Notes under the pieces: generated by a model
The model's input: the letters and a program-made list of their open reading frames with translations, nothing else
Told to the model about the DNA's origin: nothing
Databases searched by the model: none
Source of the DNA: Metabacillus indicus LMG 22858
GTDB taxonomy: Bacteria > Bacillota > Bacilli > Bacillales > Bacillaceae
NCBI RefSeq assembly: GCF_000708755.2
Contig: NZ_JGVU02000006.1
Span: forward strand, 186,001 to 250,000
DNA length: 64,000 nucleotides
Direction: 5' to 3'
Position numbers and translations under genes: made by a program
Shown here: positions 25,365 through 48,839 of the stretch, one piece after another
How the letters are laid out: the number at the start of each line of letters is the position of its first letter
Numbering within the stretch: position 1 is the stretch's first letter

Positions 25365-25395
25365 TTAAGAACATATGAATGTGAGTTATGAGAGT

Positions 25396-36413: not shown

Positions 36414-36601
36414 CATCTCAGTGAGGTAGAGGTTGCGCGATTGGAAGAGTAGCATGCATGAGGCCGGTGGGGCTGATGAACGCATGACGAAAGGCCTTCG
36501 CGCCGAAGTGTATAACAGCCACACTGTTATACGCTGGGACGGCATCGAACAGGTGCCGGACTGCCGCAGATTTTTCTGCGGAGTGCTATCTGGAGATGAT
36601 G
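36414..36601 (+). ncRNA. Lysine riboswitch (L-box)
   Basis: P1 arms CATCTC (36415) and GAGATG (36593). Core segments GAGGTAGAGGTTGCGC, AGAGTAGC, GGGGCTGATGAACGC, GCCGAAGTGTATAACAGC and GGACTGCCGCAG...CTGCGGAGTGCTATCTGGAGATG match the L-box. Lysine binding is known to terminate transcription. Precedes a permease gene. Confidence 0.94.
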
Positions 36602-38130: not shown

Positions 38131-38161
38131 AAAAGGGCTGCATCCATTATGCAGCCCTTTT
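38131..38161. terminator. Bidirectional terminator
   Basis: AAAAGGGCTGCAT-CCATT-ATGCAGCCCTTTT, 13-bp perfect stem between the permease and the CBS gene (convergent). Confidence 0.92.
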
Positions 38162-38576
38162 AATTTGCTGCCGGAGCAAACATCTGGCTTGCACAATACT
38201 CAATGATTTCTCTCCTTCTTATGATTCCAATGAAGATTCCTTTGTCATCAGTCACTGGCACAAAATTCTGTTCCATGGCCCTTGTAATAATATGTTCCAT
38301 CTCAGCCTGAATGGAAATGGGCTCGTTTTTGCGGTGAAAAGGAATTTCCGTCAGCCGGATGTTTTCTGTGTTATGAAAATTCAGGTTTGGGGTATTTTTC
38401 AGCTTCCAGAGCAGATCTCCCTCTGTCAGCGTCGTGACATATTTCCCTTCTTGATCAAGCAGAGGGACCGCTGAATAGCGGTGGTATTCCATCTTTTCAA
38501 GCGCCTGACGCATCGTCGACTGGATAGGCAAATAGACAACTTCCTTTTTTGGAATCAGGAAAAAAGCAATATTCAT
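38160..38576 (-). CDS. CBS-domain-pair protein of the kdp locus
   Basis: 138 residues made of two CBS domains: AVPLLDQEGKYVTTLTEGDLL near residue 36-57 and FVPVTDDKGIFIGIIRRREII near 105-126. Size and the IxRR ending are like B. subtilis DarB/CbpB (YkuL), a c-di-AMP-binding CBS protein, so nucleotide sensing (AMP, ATP or c-di-AMP) is plausible but unproved. Sixteen bases after the short kdpD; last gene of the locus. Not otherwise a regular member of kdp operons known to me. Confidence 0.85.
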   Translation of the reverse strand: MNIAFFLIPKKEVVYLPIQSTMRQALEKMEYHRYSAVPLLDQEGKYVTTLTEGDLLWKLKNTPNLNFHNTENIRLTEIPFHRKNEPISIQAEMEHIITRAMEQNFVPVTDDKGIFIGIIRRREIIEYCASQMFAPAAN

Positions 38577-38592: not shown

Positions 38593-39744
38593 CTATATTT
38601 TTCCATCTGACACAATATGAATATCAATGTTTTCTGTTTTTCTCATAATTGTATTTACGATAGACCCTTTTCGGATTTCCTCCCATCTTGTTCTTGCTGA
38701 CTGCCCAAGGAGAATTTGGGTCACATGGTATTTCGTTGCTGTTTCTATGATGATGTCTGCAGGTTTCCGGTTTCTCTCATGCTCAAGCAAAAAGACGGCA
38801 TTGAATTGAGAGGACAGCAGCTTCCACCTTTCCATTTTTTCTCTCATCTCCTGGGTAAATGATTCTTCCGGTAATTTTGCTGCATGGAGGATAAAAAGCT
38901 GTGCTCGGAGCCGGTTCGCCATCCTCCAGCCTCTTCTGATGAGTTTTTCTGCTGTGGGGCCGTAGCCCACGCAGACAAGTATTTTTTCATGTACGCCTAT
39001 GGGACCATATGAAAGGTTTCCGCTGATCTGCTCCATTTTTTCATCTACATCGTCCGCCACTTCTCTAAGGGCGAGCTCCCTTAAAGCAGAAAGATTGGGA
39101 ACAGTAAAGAAATGGGAGAGACTTTGCTCAATCTTGTCAGAGCCGTAAATTTTACCTTCTGACATTCTTTTTCTCAGCGTTTCAGGCGTCACATCAATCA
39201 GCTGGATTTCGCTTGCTCTTTGAACAAACAAATCAGGCACGCGTTCGCGCACCGCTACTCTCGTAATTTGCTGAACAATATCATGGACACTTTCCAGATG
39301 CTGAATATTGACGGCGGACATGACATGGATGCCTGCTTCCAGTATTTCTTCTACATCCATATACCTTTTAAGATTTTTAGAGCCTGGTATATTGGTGTGG
39401 GCAAGCTCGTCAATAATAACAACCGCCGGCTTTCTTTCAATAATGGCCTCCACATGCAGTTCTCTGAATATACTTCCTTTATACGTCATCTCTTTTAGCG
39501 GGATAACTTCAAGGTCTTTTACCAGATCCTCTGTTTCTCTTCTTCCATGACACTCTATCAGTCCAATAACTGCATCAATTCCTTCAAGCTTTAAATCATG
39601 GGCATCCTGAAGCATTTTATACGATTTTCCAACCCCTGGGGCAGCTCCGACATAAAGCTTCAGTTTGCCCCGGTTCATTTCTGCTATTTCATCTAGCAGC
39701 TCTTGAGGAGTTTTCCGTCTGAAATAAGGTTGGTTTTCATTCAT
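38593..39744 (-). CDS. kdpD: KdpD N-terminal sensor module (no kinase)
   Basis: 383 residues from the ATG at 39744 (AGGTGAAA). Contains only the cytoplasmic KdpD domain (Walker A GAAPGVGKS at 33-41, VVIIDELAHTNIPGSKN) and a universal-stress (USP) domain from about 253 to the end. The four helices, HisKA and HATPase of full KdpD (~900 residues) are absent, and no KdpE is present. The USP domain of S. aureus KdpD binds c-di-AMP; residues for that cannot be assigned here. Probably acts on transporter activity, not transcription (inference). Confidence 0.92.
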   Translation of the reverse strand: MNENQPYFRRKTPQELLDEIAEMNRGKLKLYVGAAPGVGKSYKMLQDAHDLKLEGIDAVIGLIECHGRRETEDLVKDLEVIPLKEMTYKGSIFRELHVEAIIERKPAVVIIDELAHTNIPGSKNLKRYMDVEEILEAGIHVMSAVNIQHLESVHDIVQQITRVAVRERVPDLFVQRASEIQLIDVTPETLRKRMSEGKIYGSDKIEQSLSHFFTVPNLSALRELALREVADDVDEKMEQISGNLSYGPIGVHEKILVCVGYGPTAEKLIRRGWRMANRLRAQLFILHAAKLPEESFTQEMREKMERWKLLSSQFNAVFLLEHERNRKPADIIIETATKYHVTQILLGQSARTRWEEIRKGSIVNTIMRKTENIDIHIVSDGKI

Positions 39745-39836
39745 AGTTTCACCTGCTCTATAATAGAAAAGCGTAATCTGCCGCCTGCAAGCATCCAGCC
39801 TCAGCTTACCCTGCAACTGAGGCGGATCTTTATTAT

Positions 39837-40035: not shown

Positions 40036-40620
40036 TTATTGTTTCTTCATGTTTTTCAAGTCCAGATTCAATTGAAGAACATTCACTCTTTCTTCGCCAA
40101 ACAGTCCAAGTTCCCTTCCCTGCACATGGTTTTCAATCAGTTTTTCAAGTTCAGCTTTTTTAATTCCTGTTGCTTCTGAAACTCGATCGACCTGCACGTA
40201 GGCTGCTTTTGGACTTATGTGGGGATCAAGTCCGGAACCCGAATTTGTCAGCAGATCATTCGGCACTTGACCAATTTTCACTTCCGGGTTGTTTTTTTCC
40301 CATTCCTTTATAGATTCCATCGTGCGGTTCAGCATATCTTCATTGGATGGAGCGTAGTTGTTCGATCCTGATCCTGCTCCGTTGTATTCAATGCTTGAAA
40401 CTCTTCCGTGGAAATAGCCTGCTTCAGTAAAGGACTGACCGATCAGCTCAGAACCTATCACCTTATCATTCTCATCATAAATTAAACTTCCATCTGCCTT
40501 ATGAGGAGCAGCCGCCTGGGCAATTCCTGTTACCGCAACCGGATATACCAGGCCGCAGAAGGCCATTAACACAAGGGTCATTCTGATAATCGGCCCTATC
40601 ATTGATTGTTTTTCTTCCAT
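40036..40620 (-). CDS. kdpC: K+-transporting ATPase subunit C KdpC
   Basis: 194 residues: one N-terminal membrane helix ([20 protein letters not shown]) and an extracytoplasmic domain with [32 protein letters not shown], the standard KdpC motifs. Stabilises KdpAB and is thought to help bind ATP/K+. 20 bases after kdpB. Confidence 0.96.
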
Positions 40621-40640: not shown

Positions 40641-42764
40641 TTATATAAATAGAGCAAGGCAGAGATCGATCATTTTAATGCCGATAAAAGGAACCAGCAC
40701 TCCTCCGAAACCGTATACCAGCAGATTTTTTCTGAGCAGGGCATTTGAACTCATCGGTTTATAGCTGACACCTTTCATTGCGAGAGGAATCAGAATCGGG
40801 ATAATAACTGCGTTAAAAATCAAGGCTGACAGGATCGCAGAGATTGGCGAATCAAGTCTCATGACATTCAGCATATTCATTTCCGGAATGGCGAGCATAA
40901 ACATGGCTGGTATGATGGCAAAATATTTGGCAATATCGTTTGCGATACTGAAGGTTGTCAGTGCCCCGCGTGTCATCAGCAGCTGCTTTCCGATTGAGAC
41001 AACTTCAATGATTTTCGTCGGGTTCGAATCCAGATCCACCATATTCGCAGCTTCCTTGGCAGCGGCCGTTCCGCTGTTCATGGCAAGACCTACATCTGCC
41101 TGTGCAAGTGCAGGGGCATCATTTGTACCGTCACCCGTCATGGCAACAAGCTTGCCCTGTGATTGTTCATATTTAATGACTTCGATTTTGTCCTCAGGCT
41201 TGCACTCTGCAATAAATTCGTCAACTCCTGCTTCTTTTGCGATTGTGGCAGCTGTGAGAGGATTATCTCCCGTACACATAACGGTCTTGATCCCCATGCT
41301 GCGAAGCATGTCAAACCGCTCTTTCATTCCGGACTTCACCGTATCTTTCAAATAAATTAATCCGAAGATCTGATTATTCATGGCTACAGCAAGCGGCGTA
41401 CCGCCGGCCTTGGAAATGTCATCCGTTTTTTTATCAAGATCAGCAGGGATGACTCCTCCATGTGACAGAACCCATTTCTTCACGGCATCAACCGCGCCTT
41501 TTCTTACAACCGTCCCATTAGGCAAATCCATGCCGCTCATGCGGGTTTCGGCTTTGAACTCAATGAACGTTCCTCCAGCTGCAAGATCCGTTCTATATGA
41601 AAGCTGCTTGTTCTTTAACAGCTCAAGAACCGATCTTCCCTCAGGTGTTTCATCATCCAGTGAACTGATGGCTGTCCATTGGGCAAGGTCCTGCATCGGG
41701 GCATTGCCGACAGGAATGAACTCACTTGCCATCCGGTTCCCGAATGTAATCGTACCTGTTTTGTCCAGAATGATGGTGTTTATATCACCTGCAGCTTCAA
41801 CGGCTTTACCAGACATGGCAATGACGTTGAACTGGGTTACCCGGTCCATCCCGGCGATTCCAATCGCGGATAGCAATCCCCCGATTGTCGTGGGAATCAG
41901 GCAAACCAGCAGTGCAATCAGAACAGGTATTTCTAGCTGAAAACCGAGATAATCCGCATAAAAAGGAAGTGTTACAACGACAATCATGAAAATGAGTGTC
42001 AAGCTAGTTAAAACCGTATTCAGAGCAATTTCATTCGGTGTCTTCTGACGCTGTGCACCCTCAACAAGAGCAATCATTTTATCAAGGAAGGATTCTCCCG
42101 GATCACTTGTGATTCTCACTTTAATCTCGTCGCTGACCACCTTAGTTCCTCCTGTTACGGAGTTGAAGTCCCCTCCTGCTTCCTTAATAACAGGGGCAGA
42201 TTCTCCTGTAATGGCTGATTCATCAACAGATGCAAGACCGGAGATAACCTCACCGTCCCCTGGAATAAACTCTCCCTGTGATACAATAACCACATCTCCT
42301 TTGCGGAGCGAAGCGGAGTCAATTTTCTCAATCTCTCCATTAGGTTTCAGGCGATTGGCCGTCATTTCTTTCTTGGAATTTTTCAGCGAGTTTGCCTGAG
42401 CCATTCCCCGTCCTTCTGCCAAAGCTTCAGCAAAGTTAGCAAATAACACGGTGAACAAAAGAATCAGTGAGACCGTTAAATTAAACGTCACGTTTACTTC
42501 TGCAGATCCAAAAGCAGAAGGTGCAAAAGTGAGCAGCAATGTCAGGAAGAAACCAATTTCTACAATAAACATGATTGGATTTTTCACCATGATTCGCGGA
42601 TCAAGCTTAATAAAAGATGCCTTTATTGCGTTTCCAATCAGCCCTTTATCCACTTTCGTTCTGCATTCCGGCTTCTGATCTTCCGGCTCTGTCTGTCTTG
42701 CATCTTCCATCTGATCATACCTTTCAGCAGCCTTCACTGCGGTTGCTAATGATGTCTTACTCAT
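40641..42764 (-). CDS. kdpB: K+-transporting P-type ATPase subunit B KdpB
   Basis: 707 residues. Phosphorylation motif DKTGTITFG, actuator TGESAPV, hinge [17 protein letters not shown], and membrane SLITTT-like [21 protein letters not shown]-terminal extension of about 50 charged residues is longer than in E. coli KdpB (682). ATG with GGAGG. Between kdpA and kdpC. Confidence 0.97.
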
Positions 42765-42784: not shown

Positions 42785-44461
42785 TTATAAAGTTAAAAAC
42801 TCTGCGACCGGTCCTAAAACCAGTACCGGGAAGAATGTCAATGCCCCTACAATAAATACCGCTCCGACAAATATGGTGCCAAACAAACTAGTATCTGTAC
42901 GGAATGTTCCGATTGTTTCCGGCACAAGCTTTTTAGAAGCTAATGATGCTCCAACAGCAAGCATGGCAATGATGCCAAAGTATCTGCCGATAAACATGAC
43001 TATTCCTGTTGAGATGTTCCAGAACGGAGTGGCATCTCCAAGACCTTCAAAGCCTGAGCCGTTATTGGCTGCAGAAGATGTGTATTCATAAAGAACTTGG
43101 GAAAGCCCATGGAATCCCGGATTTGAAATACCGTCAGATCCTAGCGGCGTATAAAGCGCAAGGGCTGTTGATCCCAGAATCAGAAACGGATGAATCAGCA
43201 AGGTAACAGCGATCAGTTTCATTTCTTTTCCTTCTATTTTCTTGCCAAGGAATTCTGGCGTGCGCCCTACCATCAGGCCAGATAAGAAAACGGCGATGAC
43301 AGCGTACATGATGATATTCATAAAGCCAGCTCCAATCCCGCCGAAAACCGTATTCAAAAGCATATTCGACAAGGCCAGCATCCCTGTGATGGGAGAAAGC
43401 GTATCATGCATGGTATTAACCGCTCCTGTTTCAGAAGCTGTTGTCACGATTGCATAAAGAGCAGATTGTGCCGCACCAAAGCGGACCTCTTTGCCTTCCA
43501 TGCTTCCTGATGCCTGCTCAAGGCCTGCTTCAGCCAATCTTGGGTTACCCTGATATTCAGATAAAAGAGCTGTTCCAAGAAAGACCACGAAAATCATGGC
43601 CATTGCAGCAAATAGGATTCTGCCCTGCTTTGCGTTTCCGACCATTTTTCCATACGTGAAAGGAAGGGCTGTCGGAATCAGCAGCATCAAAAGAATTTGC
43701 AGCAGGTTGCTAATCCCGTTAGGATTTTCAAAAGGATGGGCTGAGTTGACACCGAAGAATCCTCCTCCGTTGTTGCCCACTTCCTTAATGGATAAAAGAG
43801 AAGCAACAGGGCCCATTGCGATCGTCTGATCCGCGCCTTCTACGGTTTTTGCCGTCACACTTGAATCCAGCGTCTGAGGAACACCAAGAAAAACAAATAC
43901 CAGACCCGTTACAAAGGCTATCGGCAAAAGAACACGAGTAATGGAACGAATTAAATCTACAAAGAAATTTCCAAGAGGGTTGCCTGAAAGTCCTCTTATT
44001 AATGCAATGGCTGCAGCAAATGCTGTAGCAGGAGCGACAAACATCATAAACGTAATGCCGATCATCTGAGAAAGATAAGATAATCCGCTCTCTCCGCTGT
44101 AATGCTGAAGATTTGTATTGGTCATAAAGCTGATGGCCGTATTAAAGGCAAGTGTCGGATCCATTCCGGCAATGCCGCTCGGATTCAGCGGAAGCGAACC
44201 CTGAAAACGAAACACAAGGTAAACGATAAAAATCATGAAAATATTTGAAATCAGTAGAGCAGAAGCATATTGCCTGAAACTTTGATTCGTTTGTTTGATT
44301 CCGCTTAGTTTATAAACCGCATGTTCAAAAGGGCCAAAAAAAGCATCAAGTTTCGTTGTTTCATAAGAAAACGCACGCGCAATGTAGTTGCCTGCAGGCT
44401 TTGCCAGCAGGACGACAAGCGCCAATGTCAGGATAATGGAAAGTATGGATAGTACACTCAA
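42785..44461 (-). CDS. kdpA: K+-transporting ATPase subunit A KdpA
   Basis: 558 residues, the K+ channel-like subunit with four pore loops; selectivity regions [42 protein letters not shown] and [11 protein letters not shown] are all present. Start is TTG at 44461 preceded by GGAGGAAGAG. 18 bases after kdpF. Confidence 0.97.
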
Positions 44462-44479: not shown

Positions 44480-44560
44480 TTAAAATTTTTCAGGGTTTAC
44501 CAATGCATAAAGCAAATAGAGCGTGATGGCGGCGATTCCGCCGAGCAAAACAATCGTCAC
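44480..44560 (-). CDS. kdpF: KdpF, 26-residue subunit
   Basis: One hydrophobic helix ending in LLYALVNPEKF, the KdpF signature. GTG start at 44560 with GGAAGGGAAG upstream; the GTG shares bases with the TGA of the preceding 35-codon ORF (GTGA), so it is translationally coupled. KdpF binds KdpA and stabilises the complex. Confidence 0.92.
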   Translation of the reverse strand: MTIVLLGGIAAITLYLLYALVNPEKF

Positions 44561-44664
44561 TTTTCTTCCCTTCCTTCAGTCACAATCTTTTCAGACCATT
44601 TTACAAGTCCTGACATAAGCAGCGTTAAAGCTGCAAATGAGAGAATCATGATACTGTCAAGCAT
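44557..44664 (-). CDS. 35-residue membrane micropeptide upstream of kdpF
   Basis: ATG at 44664 with GGGGGA; one predicted helix (SIMILSFAALTLLMSGLVKW) and a charged tail (SEKIVTEGREEK). Stop overlaps the kdpF GTG. I do not recognise it. It may be a second small Kdp subunit or serve only to couple kdpF translation. Confidence 0.75.
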   Translation of the reverse strand: MLDSIMILSFAALTLLMSGLVKWSEKIVTEGREEK

Positions 44665-44679
44665 TTAAATCCCCCGTTC

Positions 44680-45063
44680 TTATTGAATCAGAAATTTTAC
44701 GTTATCCAATCTTGAATACATGACATGCTGAGCGCCGAGCAATTCATAAAGCTTAGCCGGATAATTCGCTCTTTTTGTAATCACCGTAATCGGCGCCCTG
44801 ACACTCGCTTTGAGTATTTCCATCAGCCGGCAGGTCTCAGCTATTTTGTCTTCGAGCAAAAGCACTCGTGAAATGGGCTCGTTTATAATCAGGTACTGTG
44901 CATGTTGCTTAATAAAATAAATGGTTTTAAACCCTTTGGTTCTCAAATGACTTTCTACACTGTAATCTCCGGTAATAAATGACAGAGATGAATTCTCCGG
45001 GAGAATCTCATCCAGGCAGCCAAGCCTCGTATAGCTCGGAATGCAAATCAACATCGTTTCCAT
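44680..45063 (-). CDS. Riboswitch-controlled RCK_N-like small protein (kdp locus, P2)
   Basis: 127 residues, soluble, ATG with AAAAGGAAGGG. Not a known family to me. Its second half parallels KtrA's RCK_N: SRVLLLEDKIAETCRLMEI, then PITVITKRANYPAKLYELL and GAQHVMYSR, against KtrA's VSFGDDIEGSILTTLLL, QVWAKAQNDYHHKVLDKI and GADKVIHPE, at nearly the same residue numbers. The N-terminal glycine loop is degenerate (CIPSYTRLG). Lies directly between a c-di-AMP riboswitch/terminator and kdpF. Paralogous to the protein at 45370-45759. A regulator or subunit of Kdp is inference. Confidence 0.82.
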   Translation of the reverse strand: METMLICIPSYTRLGCLDEILPENSSLSFITGDYSVESHLRTKGFKTIYFIKQHAQYLIINEPISRVLLLEDKIAETCRLMEILKASVRAPITVITKRANYPAKLYELLGAQHVMYSRLDNVKFLIQ

Positions 45064-45087
45064 GACGTTCCCTTCCTTTTCAAATCA

Positions 45088-45121
45088 ATAAAAACCGCGG
45101 AAGAGGGTCTCTTCCGCGGTT
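45088..45121 (-). terminator. Terminator of the kdp c-di-AMP riboswitch
   Basis: AACCGCGGAAGAG-ACC-CTCTTCCGCGGTT, 13-bp perfect stem (45093-45121), then TTTATT on the minus strand, between aptamer and the kdp genes. Confidence 0.93.
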
Positions 45122-45171
45122 TTTAGGCATCACTTAAAAAAGCATGCAGCACCTGCGATTTTGATTTCCCT

Positions 45172-45306
45172 CACTGCGCTTTCGGGGTTAGCTGTCGGAT
45201 TCGGGCTATGAGAGCTGCCCTGCCACCTTTTCAGATGGATTCACCCCAAGCGGCTGTATGCCGCAGAAGATTGGTTCCCCCGATTTCATTGTGAAATTAA
45301 GCGTCC
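45172..45306 (-). ncRNA. c-di-AMP riboswitch upstream of the kdp genes
   Basis: Minus strand: ACGCTTAATTTC, ATCGGGGGAACCAA, TTGGGGTGAATCC, GGCAGGGCAGCTCTCAT, GCCCGAATCCGACAGCTAAC, AAGCGC. Complete ydaO core. A ydaO riboswitch controlling kdpFABC is known in B. thuringiensis. No convincing promoter lies between this aptamer and the upstream gene, so it may be reached by read-through. Confidence 0.94.
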
Positions 45307-45369
45307 AGGTATTCAGTTCTGATTTGACATCTCTTTTAGAGATCCACCTCCTTAAATCATTCTCGTATT

Positions 45370-45759
45370 TTAACCTTGCTTCATTTCGCCAAGCCAGTAC
45401 GAGCACGTTCCAGGCTTGCTGAAAATCACGTATCGTGCTCCCAGTTTTTTATATAGGTCATAGTGTCTGCTGTCATCTGTCATCACGATAATCCGCATCG
45501 TGCCCAGATCTGAGAAAAAGGCTGTTAATTCAAATCCTTCATTGATCGAATCCGATATAACATAAACAGAACGATAATTTGAAAACTTCTTTTCCAATTC
45601 GATCAGGTTATCCATTCGTGTGTTTCCATCTCTAGAGTTCGACAGTTCACACGCATACTGCTCATAGTTCATGACATCTGCAAATCTTCTATTCACGCTT
45701 ATACTCTCTACGACAGAACCGAATAAATCTCCCTTGCCTATAACCAGTGTGTGATTCAT
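45370..45759 (-). CDS. Riboswitch-controlled RCK_N-like small protein (P1)
   Basis: 129 residues from an ATG at 45759 with CGGGGGATG seven bases upstream. Looks like a lone TrkA-N/RCK_N domain: glycine loop LVIGKGDLFGS (Gly8, Gly10, Gly14; KtrA FGLGRFGG), SVYVISDSINEGFELTAFF (KtrA AFVSFGDDIEGSILTTLL), IIVMTDDSRHYDLYKKLGARYVIFS (KtrA AKAQNDYHHKVLDKIGADKVIHP). No RCK_C and no membrane part. Behind its own divergent c-di-AMP riboswitch and terminator and upstream of the kdp riboswitch. Undescribed as far as I know. Confidence 0.85.
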   Translation of the reverse strand: MNHTLVIGKGDLFGSVVESISVNRRFADVMNYEQYACELSNSRDGNTRMDNLIELEKKFSNYRSVYVISDSINEGFELTAFFSDLGTMRIIVMTDDSRHYDLYKKLGARYVIFSKPGTCSYWLGEMKQG

Positions 45760-46089
45760 CGTCATCCCCCGCACATCCATGTATAACGGTATTTTTTCCC
45801 TCCTGCCGGCTCTAACCCTATTGGATGAAGCAGCCCAAGTGAAAAAAAAAGAGACCAATGCTTACCCTTCCCCCAAACAGATCCATATCCAATCAAATCA
45901 GCAGAATAAGCTGATTGATCTACATATGGCTGTTTTGGAGAAAAAGTACTCATTGGTCTACTTAACGCCCAGCAAGCCGAAGCCCTCTTTGCGTTCCGTC
46001 TTCCGTTTTTTCCTTTTTCGAATGAATTGCATGCATCAAAAAGACCTTTTACAGTCCCCAGGCCTCTTCTCTGCCTTAAAAAAGGGCAG

Positions 46090-46121
46090 TAAAAAAAAGA
46101 CTCCTGTTAAGGCGGTCTTTT
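46090..46121 (-). terminator. Terminator of the distal (divergent) riboswitch
   Basis: Minus strand AAAGACCGCCT-TAAC-AGGAGTCTTT stem (internal mismatch) followed by eight T residues. Confidence 0.8.
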
Positions 46122-46132
46122 GACCTCCTTCG

Positions 46133-46252
46133 CTTTAGCCGACGAAGTTAGCTGACGGGTAGGATGGCGAAAGATCTCATCCTTCCTGCAAATGCAGAAT
46201 TAACCCCAAAAAATTGGTTCCTCCGCTCCCGAATCTCGGGACTAGGCCGTTA
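46133..46252 (-). ncRNA. Divergent c-di-AMP (ydaO-like) riboswitch upstream of P1
   Basis: Minus strand keeps the order of ydaO segments with changes: GGCCTAGTCCCGAGATTCGGGA, GAGCGGAGGAACCAA, TTGGGGTTAATTC, AGGAAGGATGAGATC...CATCCTACCCGTCAGCTAACTTCG, GGCT closing P1. Two usually invariant spots differ (GGAGGAACC for GGGGGACC, TTAATTC for TGAATCC), so ligand affinity may be altered. Followed by a terminator and P1, preceded by a good promoter. Confidence 0.78.
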
Positions 46253-46274
46253 TGCAATTCGTGATTACGTGATT

Positions 46275-46303
46275 ATCTTACTCCCGCGGTGAGATCGTGT
46301 AAA
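46275..46303 (-). promoter_or_regulatory. Promoter of the P1-kdp transcript
   Basis: Minus strand TTTACA (46298-46303), 17-base spacer ending GGGAG, TAAGAT (46275-46280). Same design as the ktrAB leader promoter. The rest of 46304-46464 holds no other clear signal. Confidence 0.75.
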
Positions 46304-46493: not shown

Positions 46494-46618
46494 AAACTCG
46501 TCAATATATGCAAAGCGCACTCACCAGCAAGATAAGATTTTGTCATTGTATGACGGTGGATCTGCGCAACTGCAGCAGCAATGTTAATCAAAAGCATGTT
46601 TGCCGGGGGTATATTCAT

Positions 46619-46996
46619 ATGGCTGTGTCGCCAAAAAAAAAATTAGAAATGGAACTTAGTGAAGCCTTTATTAAGCTTCAAAGAGACTTAATTGGACGCG
46701 GTCCTCAGGAGACCAGAACCTACATTGTCCATGATATGGTGATCGCGAGGTTCAAAGGTGTTCTCACAGTTGAAGAAAAACACCTGGTTGAAAACGAGAA
46801 TGGCAGAAAGCTTGTGAAACAAATGAGACAAGTCCTGCGTGAAATGTACAGTAAAGAGTTTGAGGAAATCGTAGAAAGATGCACCGGCTGCAAAGTGCTG
46901 TCCAGCCACAGCGACATCAGCACCAAAATGGGGGAACGGATTGAGGTTTTTGTGGTAGATAAGGATTTAGAGCGTTCTCTCGAATCAAAAGGCTAA
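46619..46996 (+). CDS. DUF2294-type protein
   Basis: 125 residues from ATG at 46619 with GGGGG ten bases upstream. Pattern KKLEMELSEAFIKLQRDLIGRGP, TYIVHDMVIARFKGVLTVEEK, GCKVLSSHSDISTKMGERIEVFVVDKDLE fits the DUF2294 (YbcI-like) family, small soluble alpha/beta proteins of unknown role found in Bacillus and cyanobacteria. Divergent from the P1-kdp transcript and upstream of glutamine synthetase, but separated by terminator 47011-47044. Confidence 0.85.
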   Translation: MAVSPKKKLEMELSEAFIKLQRDLIGRGPQETRTYIVHDMVIARFKGVLTVEEKHLVENENGRKLVKQMRQVLREMYSKEFEEIVERCTGCKVLSSHSDISTKMGERIEVFVVDKDLERSLESKG

Positions 46997-47238: not shown

Positions 47239-47256
47239 AGGCTCAATTTATTTCCT

Positions 47257-47372
47257 AATTCGCAGAATCCGCTAAAGGAACGGGGGACCCAATCTTCCGG
47301 GGTGAAGCCGCAGCATCAAGCGGCCGGGCGACTCTTACCGTCCGAATCCGTCAGCTAACTCCGTATGCGTTG
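47257..47372 (+). ncRNA. c-di-AMP riboswitch upstream of a glutamine synthetase gene
   Basis: Plus strand: TTCGCAGAATCCGC, GGAACGGGGGACCCAATC, CCGGGGTGAAGCC, GGCCGGGCGACTCTTACCG, TCCGAATCCGTCAGCTAACTCC, TATGCGT. ydaO core intact apart from GAAGCC for GAATCC. The 130 bases to the start codon hold no strong stem with T-run, so control may be through translation or a weak terminator. Confidence 0.9.
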
Positions 47373-47501
47373 TTTGAGAGAGGAAGGTGTGACTATTCAG
47401 AGCCGGCTAAAACCCGCTTGCTGAAACAAAAATATAATCCTTCGATTTTTCAAAAACCGTTCGTAATGTCAGACAAAAATTAAAAAATCGGGGTGTTTTT
47501 T

Positions 47502-48839
47502 ATGTTGACCATTTTAGATACGTTAAGTGAAATCAAGGCAGAAATAGCTGAAAAACATGTAGAATTGCTGCACCTTCAGTTTGTTGATCTTGAAGGGAAT
47601 TTAAAGCATGTCACCATTACAGCTGATCAGATTGATGAGGCGGTGGAAGGTAAAATGATGTTTGACGGGTCGTCAATCACGGGCTTCTGTCCAATTAATC
47701 AGTCCGACCTATATTTAAAGCCTGATTTGAACACATTTGCCATCATTCCCTGGTCAGTTGAGGAAAAGTATGCGGAAGCAAGGTTTCTATGCAGCATTCA
47801 CAATCCGGATATGACTCCTTATGAAGGTGATCCGAGATTTGTGCTGCAGCAGGCAATGAAAAGAGCAAAATCACTCAGTTATTCCATCAGCATCGGGCCT
47901 GAATTGGAATTCTTCCTTTTCAAAACCGACGAGAATGGAAATCCGACAACAAATCCGCATGATCTGGGAGGCTATTTCGAACCCGCTCATGATTTAGGTG
48001 AAAAAGTGAGGCTTGAGATCTACCGGACGTTAAAAGCAATGGGCTTCAAAATTGAAGCCTCACACCATGAAGTAGCAAACGGCCAGCATGAAATCAACTT
48101 CCGTTTTAACGATGCCCTGACTTCTGCCGATAATGCAACGACTTATAAATGGGTTGTTAAAAATGTCGCAAAGCAATTTAATCTGCATGCTTCTTTTATG
48201 CCTAAACCGGTTCAAGGAATAAACGGATCAGGCATGCACGTGAACATCTCGCTGCTTAAGGATAGGGAAAATACGTTTTACGACGAAAACGATGATATGC
48301 AGCTTTCAAATGAAGCCTACTACTTTATCAATGGCATACTGACCTATATTGAAGAAGTGACCGCCATCACTAACCCGATTGTTAATTCGTACAAGCGGCT
48401 TGTTCCTGGCTTTGAAGCTCCTTGCTATATTGCCTGGTCAACCTCAAACCGTTCAACCTTAATTCGCATACCGGCAAAAAGAGAGGCTGCAACACGCATT
48501 GAAGTGAGGCATCCTGATCCAAGCGCTAATCCATACCTTGCTTATGCCGCGATTGCTGAAGCCGGAATGGCAGGCATTGCCTTATCAGAATTCCCGAAGG
48601 CTGCTGTTCATGATGACATTTTCAGCATGACAGAATCAGAGCGGCTTGAAAAAGGCATCAAGCATCTTCCAGATAACCTTGAGACAGCACTGGATTTGCT
48701 GGAAAACGGCCCACTTGCGAAAATGGTTCTAGGGCCTCACGTTTTCCGTCAATTTCTTCTTCATAAAAGGGCTGAATGGCACGAATACAGAAATACCGTA
48801 CATTTATGGGAAATTGAACGTTATCAGACGAAATTTTAA
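47502..48839 (+). CDS. Glutamine synthetase type I paralog
   Basis: Makes glutamine from glutamate, ammonia and ATP. 445 residues from ATG at 47502 (GGGG site), type I-alpha length without the adenylylation insert. Catalytic motifs intact: MFDGSSI, SIGPELEFFLF, HHEVANGQHEINF, NGSGMHVNISL, RLVPGFEAPCYIAWS (Glu flap) and NRSTLIRIPAKR. The loop FVRIEESD of B. subtilis GlnA reads FCPINQSD here, so feedback residue Arg62 is Pro64. It lies behind a c-di-AMP riboswitch, not a GlnR operon. Likely a second, non-feedback-inhibited enzyme (inference). Confidence 0.94.
   Translation: MLTILDTLSEIKAEIAEKHVELLHLQFVDLEGNLKHVTITADQIDEAVEGKMMFDGSSITGFCPINQSDLYLKPDLNTFAIIPWSVEEKYAEARFLCSIHNPDMTPYEGDPRFVLQQAMKRAKSLSYSISIGPELEFFLFKTDENGNPTTNPHDLGGYFEPAHDLGEKVRLEIYRTLKAMGFKIEASHHEVANGQHEINFRFNDALTSADNATTYKWVVKNVAKQFNLHASFMPKPVQGINGSGMHVNISLLKDRENTFYDENDDMQLSNEAYYFINGILTYIEEVTAITNPIVNSYKRLVPGFEAPCYIAWSTSNRSTLIRIPAKREAATRIEVRHPDPSANPYLAYAAIAEAGMAGIALSEFPKAAVHDDIFSMTESERLEKGIKHLPDNLETALDLLENGPLAKMVLGPHVFRQFLLHKRAEWHEYRNTVHLWEIERYQTKF

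Follow-up and report, generated by a model that had tools for sequence, protein, structure and literature searches.

We analyzed a 64,000-nucleotide stretch of the Metabacillus indicus LMG 22858 genome (hereafter the window; it lies on contig 6 of the 4.13-Mb genome G000), whose minus strand carries the leader and genes of a kdp potassium uptake operon. Along that strand, a promoter-like site (TTTACA-17-TAAGAT; 46275..46303) stands directly upstream of A1, a cyclic di-AMP (c-di-AMP, or ydaO) aptamer of divergent subtype (46122..46258; RF00379, 83.6 bits, gathering score 38), and its putative terminator T1 (46038..46121; AAAAGACC ... GGTCTTTTT). Between A1 and the next gene lies a conserved structured RNA, element E, with an aptamer-like domain (45955..46004; GGAAGAC ... 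GTAGACC) and its own long terminator hairpin followed by a U run, T2 (45852..45959). P1, an open reading frame (ORF) of 129 amino acids (aa; 45370..45759), comes next and is separated by 56 nucleotides (nt) from A2, a canonical c-di-AMP aptamer (45163..45313; RF00379, 100.7 bits), its terminator T3 (45089..45125) and P2, a 127-aa stand-alone RCK_N-like protein recognized by ORF and family profile (44680..45063). The operon continues with a 35-aa membrane micropeptide (44557..44664) and kdpF (26 aa, GTG start; 44480..44560), both read by eye, kdpA (42785..44461; TIGR00680, 701 bits) and kdpB (40641..42764; TIGR01497, 1109 bits), both over the NCBIfam cut-off, and kdpC (40036..40620), recognized by ORF and gene order only. 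Next on this strand are a KdpD-like non-kinase sensor (38593..39747; NF038185, 618.5 bits, cut-off 550) and a CbpB-like CBS-domain protein (38160..38576; PF00571; NF041630, 64.5 bits, below the cut-off of 125). Element E, which the original prediction for this DNA had overlooked by counting it within the terminator of A1, is the most valuable content of the region.

The rest of the predicted order (aptamer, P1, aptamer, terminator, P2, micropeptide, kdpFABC), with a divergent first and a canonical second aptamer, is borne out by the RF00379 scores, ORFs and NCBIfam matches. What had been taken as one terminator after A1 is really T1 plus the separate element E, with T2, directly before P1. The proposal that kdp is reached through two c-di-AMP checkpoints in series thus keeps its layout but not its count, as kdp lies behind three terminators, of which the second goes with E and not with a c-di-AMP aptamer. 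A promoter had been proposed only ahead of the first unit; no other minus-strand promoter-like site was found between 44400 and 46700, but the scan returned four sites where shuffled sequences gave 4.7, so it argues only weakly for a single promoter.

ORF noise between the aptamers and kdp was at first read as small proteins, and its repeated letters turned out to be element E. A pattern search located E at 33 places among the collected loci, and R2, a covariance model of the E domain that scores the window copy at 90.7 bits, found further, more diverged copies, among them one before P2-glpFKD in G074; 40 were collected in all. A second R2 match in the window's genome (24.7 bits), adjoining rnr- and smpB-like genes by eye, was judged to be noise. 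The domain spans about 50 nt and has in the window the form GGAAGACGGAACGC-AAAG-(hairpin)-GCUGGGCGUU-AAGUAGACC. The hairpin 3' of it begins, in the consensus, with AGACCAAUG..UACUUUUUCUCC and ends with GGGGAAAAGUA..CAUUGGUCU before the U run, and the two 9-nt strands of its base lie 41-139 nt apart in the 40 copies. RNAalifold, unprompted, gave nearly the same fold for the domain, with 13 pairs, five of them with changes on both sides. In our own 12-pair structure, 97.8% of alignment cells are paired, against 20-33% when the partners are slid, and both-sided changes occur in 23 cells, compared with 6.1 in shuffles (0/500 reach this value). For the 21 pairs of T2, 95.9% of cells are paired, against 47-57% when slid, with eight double-change cells compared with 2.2 in shuffles (again 0/500). 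The 9-bp base of T2 is intact in 37 of the 40 copies, with both-sided changes at five positions, and in several diverged copies the base is changed on both sides (AGACCGGUG/CGCCGGUCU and AAGCCUGCG/CGCAGGCUU). The window copy of E folds into the consensus at -15.8 kcal/mol (z -1.8), its T2 hairpin reaches -54.9 kcal/mol (z -8.4), and many letters outside the E helices are also conserved.

The motif GUAGACC is the 3' strand of the E closing helix and, without its first two letters (AGACC), the start of the 5' strand of T2. In silico, this AGACC-type strand is common to domain and terminator in all 40 copies, as is the CC found in both folds. Because one strand is needed by both, the E domain and T2 are predicted to be mutually exclusive folds, as in a riboswitch. 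Several features of the data weigh against this prediction. Two of the five measures for the E domain are not clearly above shuffles (double-change pairs, reached in 49/500; pair types, 233/500), and the outer GG/CC pairs are invariant, which leaves that helix without covariation support. One slid control for T2 (+2) also gives eight double-change cells, and the shuffle controls for both E and T2 ignore kinship. The count of intact T2 bases leans towards pairing, as the 3' strand was taken as the best complement before the T-rich tail and the shared strand was located by a CC-ending pattern.

In Rfam 15, whose families include Na+-I, the window copy of E found no credible match (two unrelated matches, best E-value 2.8). 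Six sub-threshold matches were obtained for the E of locus L163 (five microRNA families and one fstAT), none of them credible; the best (1.7e-5, 34.6 bits against a threshold of 117) lay over the terminator hairpin.

Most copies of E (34/40) stand ahead of kdp: 27 were assigned by tblastn, one of them at the decayed kdp of G125, six lie in loci collected as kdpA leaders whose short kdpA ends gave no match, and one, L020:248, is shown by L195 to precede kdpA. The others are ahead of ktrAB (three copies), of a P2-family gene and glpFKD (two) and of an MpsC-like gene with P2 (one). A gene-blind R2 scan of 150 genomes of the order detected E in nine genomes, with nine copies, all at K+ uptake loci: five at kdp, one at a decayed kdp and three at ktrAB, where TrkH, TrkA_N and TrkA_C were identified by Pfam. 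Since Kdp and Ktr differ in kind, K+ uptake is the common theme of E. The association should be read with some caution. Of the 40 copies, 36 come from loci collected on account of kdp, P2 or, for L179, an aptamer of the A1 type, which biases the gene association; the gene-blind scan is the only unbiased sample, and two of its nine genomes are that of the window and its relative G048 in the same genus. Although ktrA directly follows E in L192, a CitMHS fragment in L191 and a 78-aa ORF plus an AI-2E-type transporter in L193 lie between E and ktrB. In a sample of 397 genomes of the order, 57 with KdpA, R2 detected E in 28 of the 56 kdp leaders examined (G342, at a contig end, was left out), and the other 28 have no E. 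Outside the order, two copies of E were seen, both in G579 of another order.

The small size of the E domain (50 nt) and its purine-rich interrupted hairpin would suit an RNA site recognized by an antiterminator or terminator protein, as with BglG/LicT or GlpP, the domain then being a protein-binding hairpin. The position of E ahead of P2-glpFKD in G074 and G077 points the same way, as the glpFKD operon in Bacillus is under protein antiterminator control. We regard this explanation as possible but rather doubtful. No adjacent regulator gene common to the E loci was noticed besides the MpsC-like gene and P1/P2, although no systematic test was made; E is present where P1 and P2 were not found (e.g., L154, L155, L165); and the conserved letters outside the helices speak against it too.

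In the 24 leaders listed, E lies 99-126 nt behind the c-di-AMP aptamer, and such narrow spacing could mean that E is only a conserved slow terminator, an unusual expression platform of the A1 riboswitch with no sensor of its own. The separate terminator T1, however, lies between the A1 aptamer and E in these leaders, and A2 and the aptamers at the P2 loci of family f50 stand without E. In L193 (G114), moreover, E has no c-di-AMP aptamer at all, and in L019 and L020 there is none on its strand; at these two loci E precedes a P2-like gene (L019:6679-7179 +; L020:7657-8061 -) ahead of glpF-glpK-glpD, as read by eye. Because E stands without a c-di-AMP aptamer at these places, it is not merely the platform of A1, and we consider that explanation improbable.

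The c-di-AMP aptamers were traced with R1, a model built from 23 c-di-AMP aptamers detected by Rfam, and Rfam was concordant with R1 in the loci rechecked. R1 found an aptamer in 53 of the 56 kdp leaders of the order sample (none in L152, L173 and L177). Sequences similar to A1 occur in L018 and L021, in the aptamers that precede P2-kdp, and in L019 and L020, in aptamers close to MpsC-like genes. The layout of T1, GACC ... GGTCT with a T-rich tail, is present in all 24 leaders listed. Folded in full, T1 is not unusually stable (-24.5 kcal/mol, z -0.75), and a simple terminator scan did not pick it up, whereas it did list T3 (17-bp stem, T-rich tail, z -8.9). A GGAGGTC/GACC hairpin in the T1 region is a possible antiterminator. 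In most of the 24 leaders, conservation in the stretch after A1 (46038-46121, minus strand) exceeds that of a simple hairpin (CAGGxGGCUUUUUUGUUG ... CAGCCUG ... GUAGGUCUUUUU).

P2 is, by its profile matches, a member of an unnamed Bacilli protein family, and P1 is, by the same kind of comparison, its remote paralogue: the two share 29% identity over 52 residues (5e-4), and the P2 profile detects P1 in all three genomes compared (3.0e-4 to 1.3e-3; 6.2e-4 for the window). Both are under purifying selection, with ratios of nonsynonymous to synonymous substitution (dN/dS) of 0.06-0.14 for P1 (three pairs) and 0.05-0.07 for P2 (three of six pairs, the three with G049 being saturated). In the order sample, the P2 profile matched 34/397 genomes at an E-value of 0.01 or better. 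Strong matches (2.1e-9 or better) came from 19/397, that of G280 being a 50-residue fragment; all 19 genomes have KdpA, compared with 57 of the 397 overall. In a class sample, 44/398 genomes matched at 0.01, mostly of family f50. P1 is rarer than P2, being found by its own sequence in 3 of 80 genomes of the window's family; P1 relatives before kdp are intact in G178 (L150) and apparently broken in G259 and G335.

We read 47 P2-family loci, that is, 46 fetched loci and the window; the broken or fragmentary L022 and L095 were left out, about 19 further class matches fell outside this set, and many of the 47 come from close species and are not independent. In 40 of them, a same-strand c-di-AMP aptamer lies within 800 bp upstream, the exceptions being L019, L020, L094, L096, L106, L110 and L119. 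The next gene is kdpA for 27 of the 47, six times with an unnamed 82-113-aa ORF in between, which supports a link to Kdp, but for the other 20 it is not, and in f50 several P2 members stand behind an aptamer away from kdp. Conversely, in 41 of the 56 kdp operons of the order sample no strong P2-family gene lies immediately upstream, although G084 has such a gene at the other end of the operon, and G178, G335 and G403 have weak matches. Given those 20 members, a protein of the c-di-AMP regulon with a wider target is more likely than a subunit dedicated to Kdp. The P1-like genes of G259 and G335 and the P2 of G045, all apparently broken, indicate that P1 and P2 are dispensable.

P1 and P2 had been predicted to be single RCK_N domains. 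In searches of the PDB with two family profiles, KtrA and GsuK indeed ranked first (A4, 4.5e-7 and 9.1e-5; A12, 8.8e-5 and 2.4e-4), and the family keeps a conserved end, YPxxLYxxLGAxYVIYS. Much else speaks against assignment to RCK_N. The KtrA score with A4 is that of a chain with two domain copies, each about 0.1 alone, and de novo designs rank next (3.4e-4 and 3.8e-4 with A4; 5.9e-4 and 0.0057 with A12). Against Pfam TrkA_N (PF02254), P1 scores 13.8 bits, under the gathering score of 23.8, and P2 has no match; five of 40 family members match weakly, the best at 0.008. No Pfam family matches more than six of the 40 (ADH_zinc_N six, TrkA_N five; best E-value 3.2e-4, DUF4218), and no NCBIfam family more than two (best 2.9e-4). 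With hhalign, comparison of the family with three and five KtrA/TrkA domains gave 17.5% and 9.4%, which is not significant, and AlphaFold on two-row alignments gave models of P1 and P2 too poor to use, with predicted local distance difference test (pLDDT) values of 42.9 and 51.4. The proteins are therefore best called RCK_N-like, with modest support from profile comparison. Compared with the RCK_N domains of KtrA, KtrC and TrkA, their nearest solved relatives by profile, members of this family stand alone, without RCK_C and without a conserved glycine loop.

That loop bears on the function first proposed for the proteins, namely that they are KdpFABC subunits with a standard RCK_N domain for binding adenine nucleotides. 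The position ahead of kdpA in 27 of 47 loci and the KtrA and GsuK matches agree with this proposal. The GxGxxG loop, however, is absent from P2, and the glycine loop noted in P1 is kept as GxG in G000 and G050 but lost in G048, so the nucleotide-sensing role is weakened. With the 20 P2 loci and 41 kdp operons in which the association fails, the proposal now seems unlikely. Least probable of all is that the ORFs are of little importance, being mere remnants or leader ORFs within an array of riboswitches: the broken copies (G045, G259, G335) and the many kdp operons without P1 or P2 would fit, but the dN/dS values of 0.05-0.14 where measurable (6/9 pairs) and the wide conservation in the class argue against it.

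One of the nearest described systems is the kdpFABC operon of Bacillus thuringiensis, where the available text of Wang 2019 (PMC6488665) reports a c-di-AMP aptamer and an intrinsic terminator ahead of the operon acting as an OFF switch. There, KdpD is truncated and no KdpE is reported, c-di-AMP drops under K+ limitation, and low K+ reaches kdp through c-di-AMP. The window shares the aptamer and terminator ahead of kdpFABC. As described in that text, however, the B. thuringiensis leader has one aptamer, with the terminator ending at +227 and kdpF starting at +370, and because of this spacing it would have no room for E/T2, P1, A2 and P2 together. The same text places the kdp riboswitch mainly in the B. 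cereus group; with the aptamer present in 53 of the 56 leaders of our order sample, kdp seems to be under riboswitch control more widely. The accessible part of a review of tandem riboswitches (PMC9481103) counts 77 c-di-AMP doublets, most with a terminator between the aptamers. Unlike these, A1 and A2 are set apart by a gene for a protein and by another RNA element related to neither, so they are not a pair with only a terminator between, the description given in that review passage. A close parallel to E is the tandem Na+-I/c-di-AMP logic gate of osmotic genes (White 2022, PMC9337991), in which an ON aptamer overlapping the terminator stem is in series with a c-di-AMP OFF switch. E resembles it in that overlap and in the serial OFF switch; it differs in having no credible Rfam 15 match, in its place behind the c-di-AMP aptamer and in its K+ uptake genes, and the words kdp and ktr are absent from the available text of that paper. 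Among the other sources, as far as their accessible text extends, PMC11109978 and PMC8632094 mention neither kdp nor potassium, PMC5670726 has one ydaO element, ahead of a cell-wall hydrolase, and PMC3848588 has kdp with a predicted KdpE site. Search listings of openly licensed literature showed nothing on a second RNA element at kdp or on a K+ riboswitch, and phrases for a potassium riboswitch were absent from the papers searched.

Several neighboring features were recorded in their own right. Five of the six c-di-AMP riboswitches of the whole genome fall within the window (RF00379; 25232-25372 -, 33041-33184 -, 45163-45313 -, 46122-46258 - and 47251-47385 +). The one at 25372 (-) stands ahead of a TrkA_N gene (match 25117-24770), and the stretch 47251-48839 (+) holds a glutamine-synthetase-like gene, read by eye, behind its own aptamer; the relatives of this gene in L018 and L020 carry two tandem c-di-AMP aptamers. 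Three tandem aptamers precede P2 and kdp, without E or P1, in L017 (5948-6516 -) and L022 (5796-6370 -; P2 broken). A lysine riboswitch (36419-36596 +, 127.2 bits) is ahead of a 478-aa gene that by eye is amino-acid permease-like. An MpsC gene (PF10057, 128.5 bits; 46508-46996 +) is divergently adjacent to the E-bearing leader, and an MpsC-like neighbor, read by eye, is kept in L190-L193 even where kdp is decayed or ktrAB is in its place; a link between MpsC and c-di-AMP was not found in the openly licensed literature searched. A small ORF like the micropeptide, of 28-35 aa, was found by pattern search in a similar place in 34 of 39 kdp leaders, a count in which a few matches (e.g., L141, L167) are in another frame.

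The reading that we consider probable is that of a multi-stage attenuator in front of a kdp operon with an adjacent non-kinase KdpD, in which E and T2 form a bistable RNA and P1 and P2 are paralogous RCK_N-like proteins. Our confidence in it is slightly lowered because T1 is not unusually stable and because, at two of the three ktr loci, other genes follow E before ktrB is reached. Transcription would start at one promoter ahead of A1 and run through T1, T2 and T3 in series, which is likely given the 56-nt gap between P1 and A2 and the lack of a minus-strand promoter-like site there in a weak scan. A1/T1 and A2/T3, whose aptamers and terminator layouts are observed, would act as c-di-AMP OFF switches, a direction taken from the B. 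thuringiensis kdp riboswitch, so that high c-di-AMP would stop transcription at T1 and T3. In the folded E, the closing helix GG(purine loop)AC/GU(purine loop)CC would sequester GUAGACC and block T2, and P1 and then kdp would be transcribed; in the unfolded E, AGACCAAUG would pair with CAUUGGUCU and transcription would end at T2. This anatomy, in which the folded domain precludes T2, makes E a predicted ON switch. The balance may be shifted by a ligand or a protein that probably signals the ionic or osmotic state; the targets, comprising genes for K+ uptake, an operon for glycerol and the P2 family, suggest such an input. The resulting gate would turn kdp on only when c-di-AMP is low and E is folded, and P1 and P2 would be made only, and stepwise, as c-di-AMP falls. 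In the least certain step of the model, P1 and P2 would most likely be adaptors that alter the activity of their partner, either a K+ transporter or an RCK ring (Ktr, or in cis Kdp), by binding to it in K+ starvation.

Within this multi-stage attenuator, E could be a novel type of RNA switch controlling potassium uptake. A bolder and distinctly tentative suggestion is that E represents a new riboswitch class that turns K+ importers on and whose input would be a monovalent ion or some other immediate indicator of K+ or osmotic status; low K+, high Na+ and a linked metabolite, for instance glutamate, are candidates. E would then form an AND gate in series with c-di-AMP riboswitches over both Kdp and Ktr, in some ten families of one Bacilli order and beyond, with the P2 family as companion effector. 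A second conserved RNA in kdp leaders that also stands ahead of Ktr genes allows a direct and inexpensive test of whether an RNA senses K+, Na+ or osmotic state, and the P2 family adds a conserved, unnamed protein to the c-di-AMP regulons.

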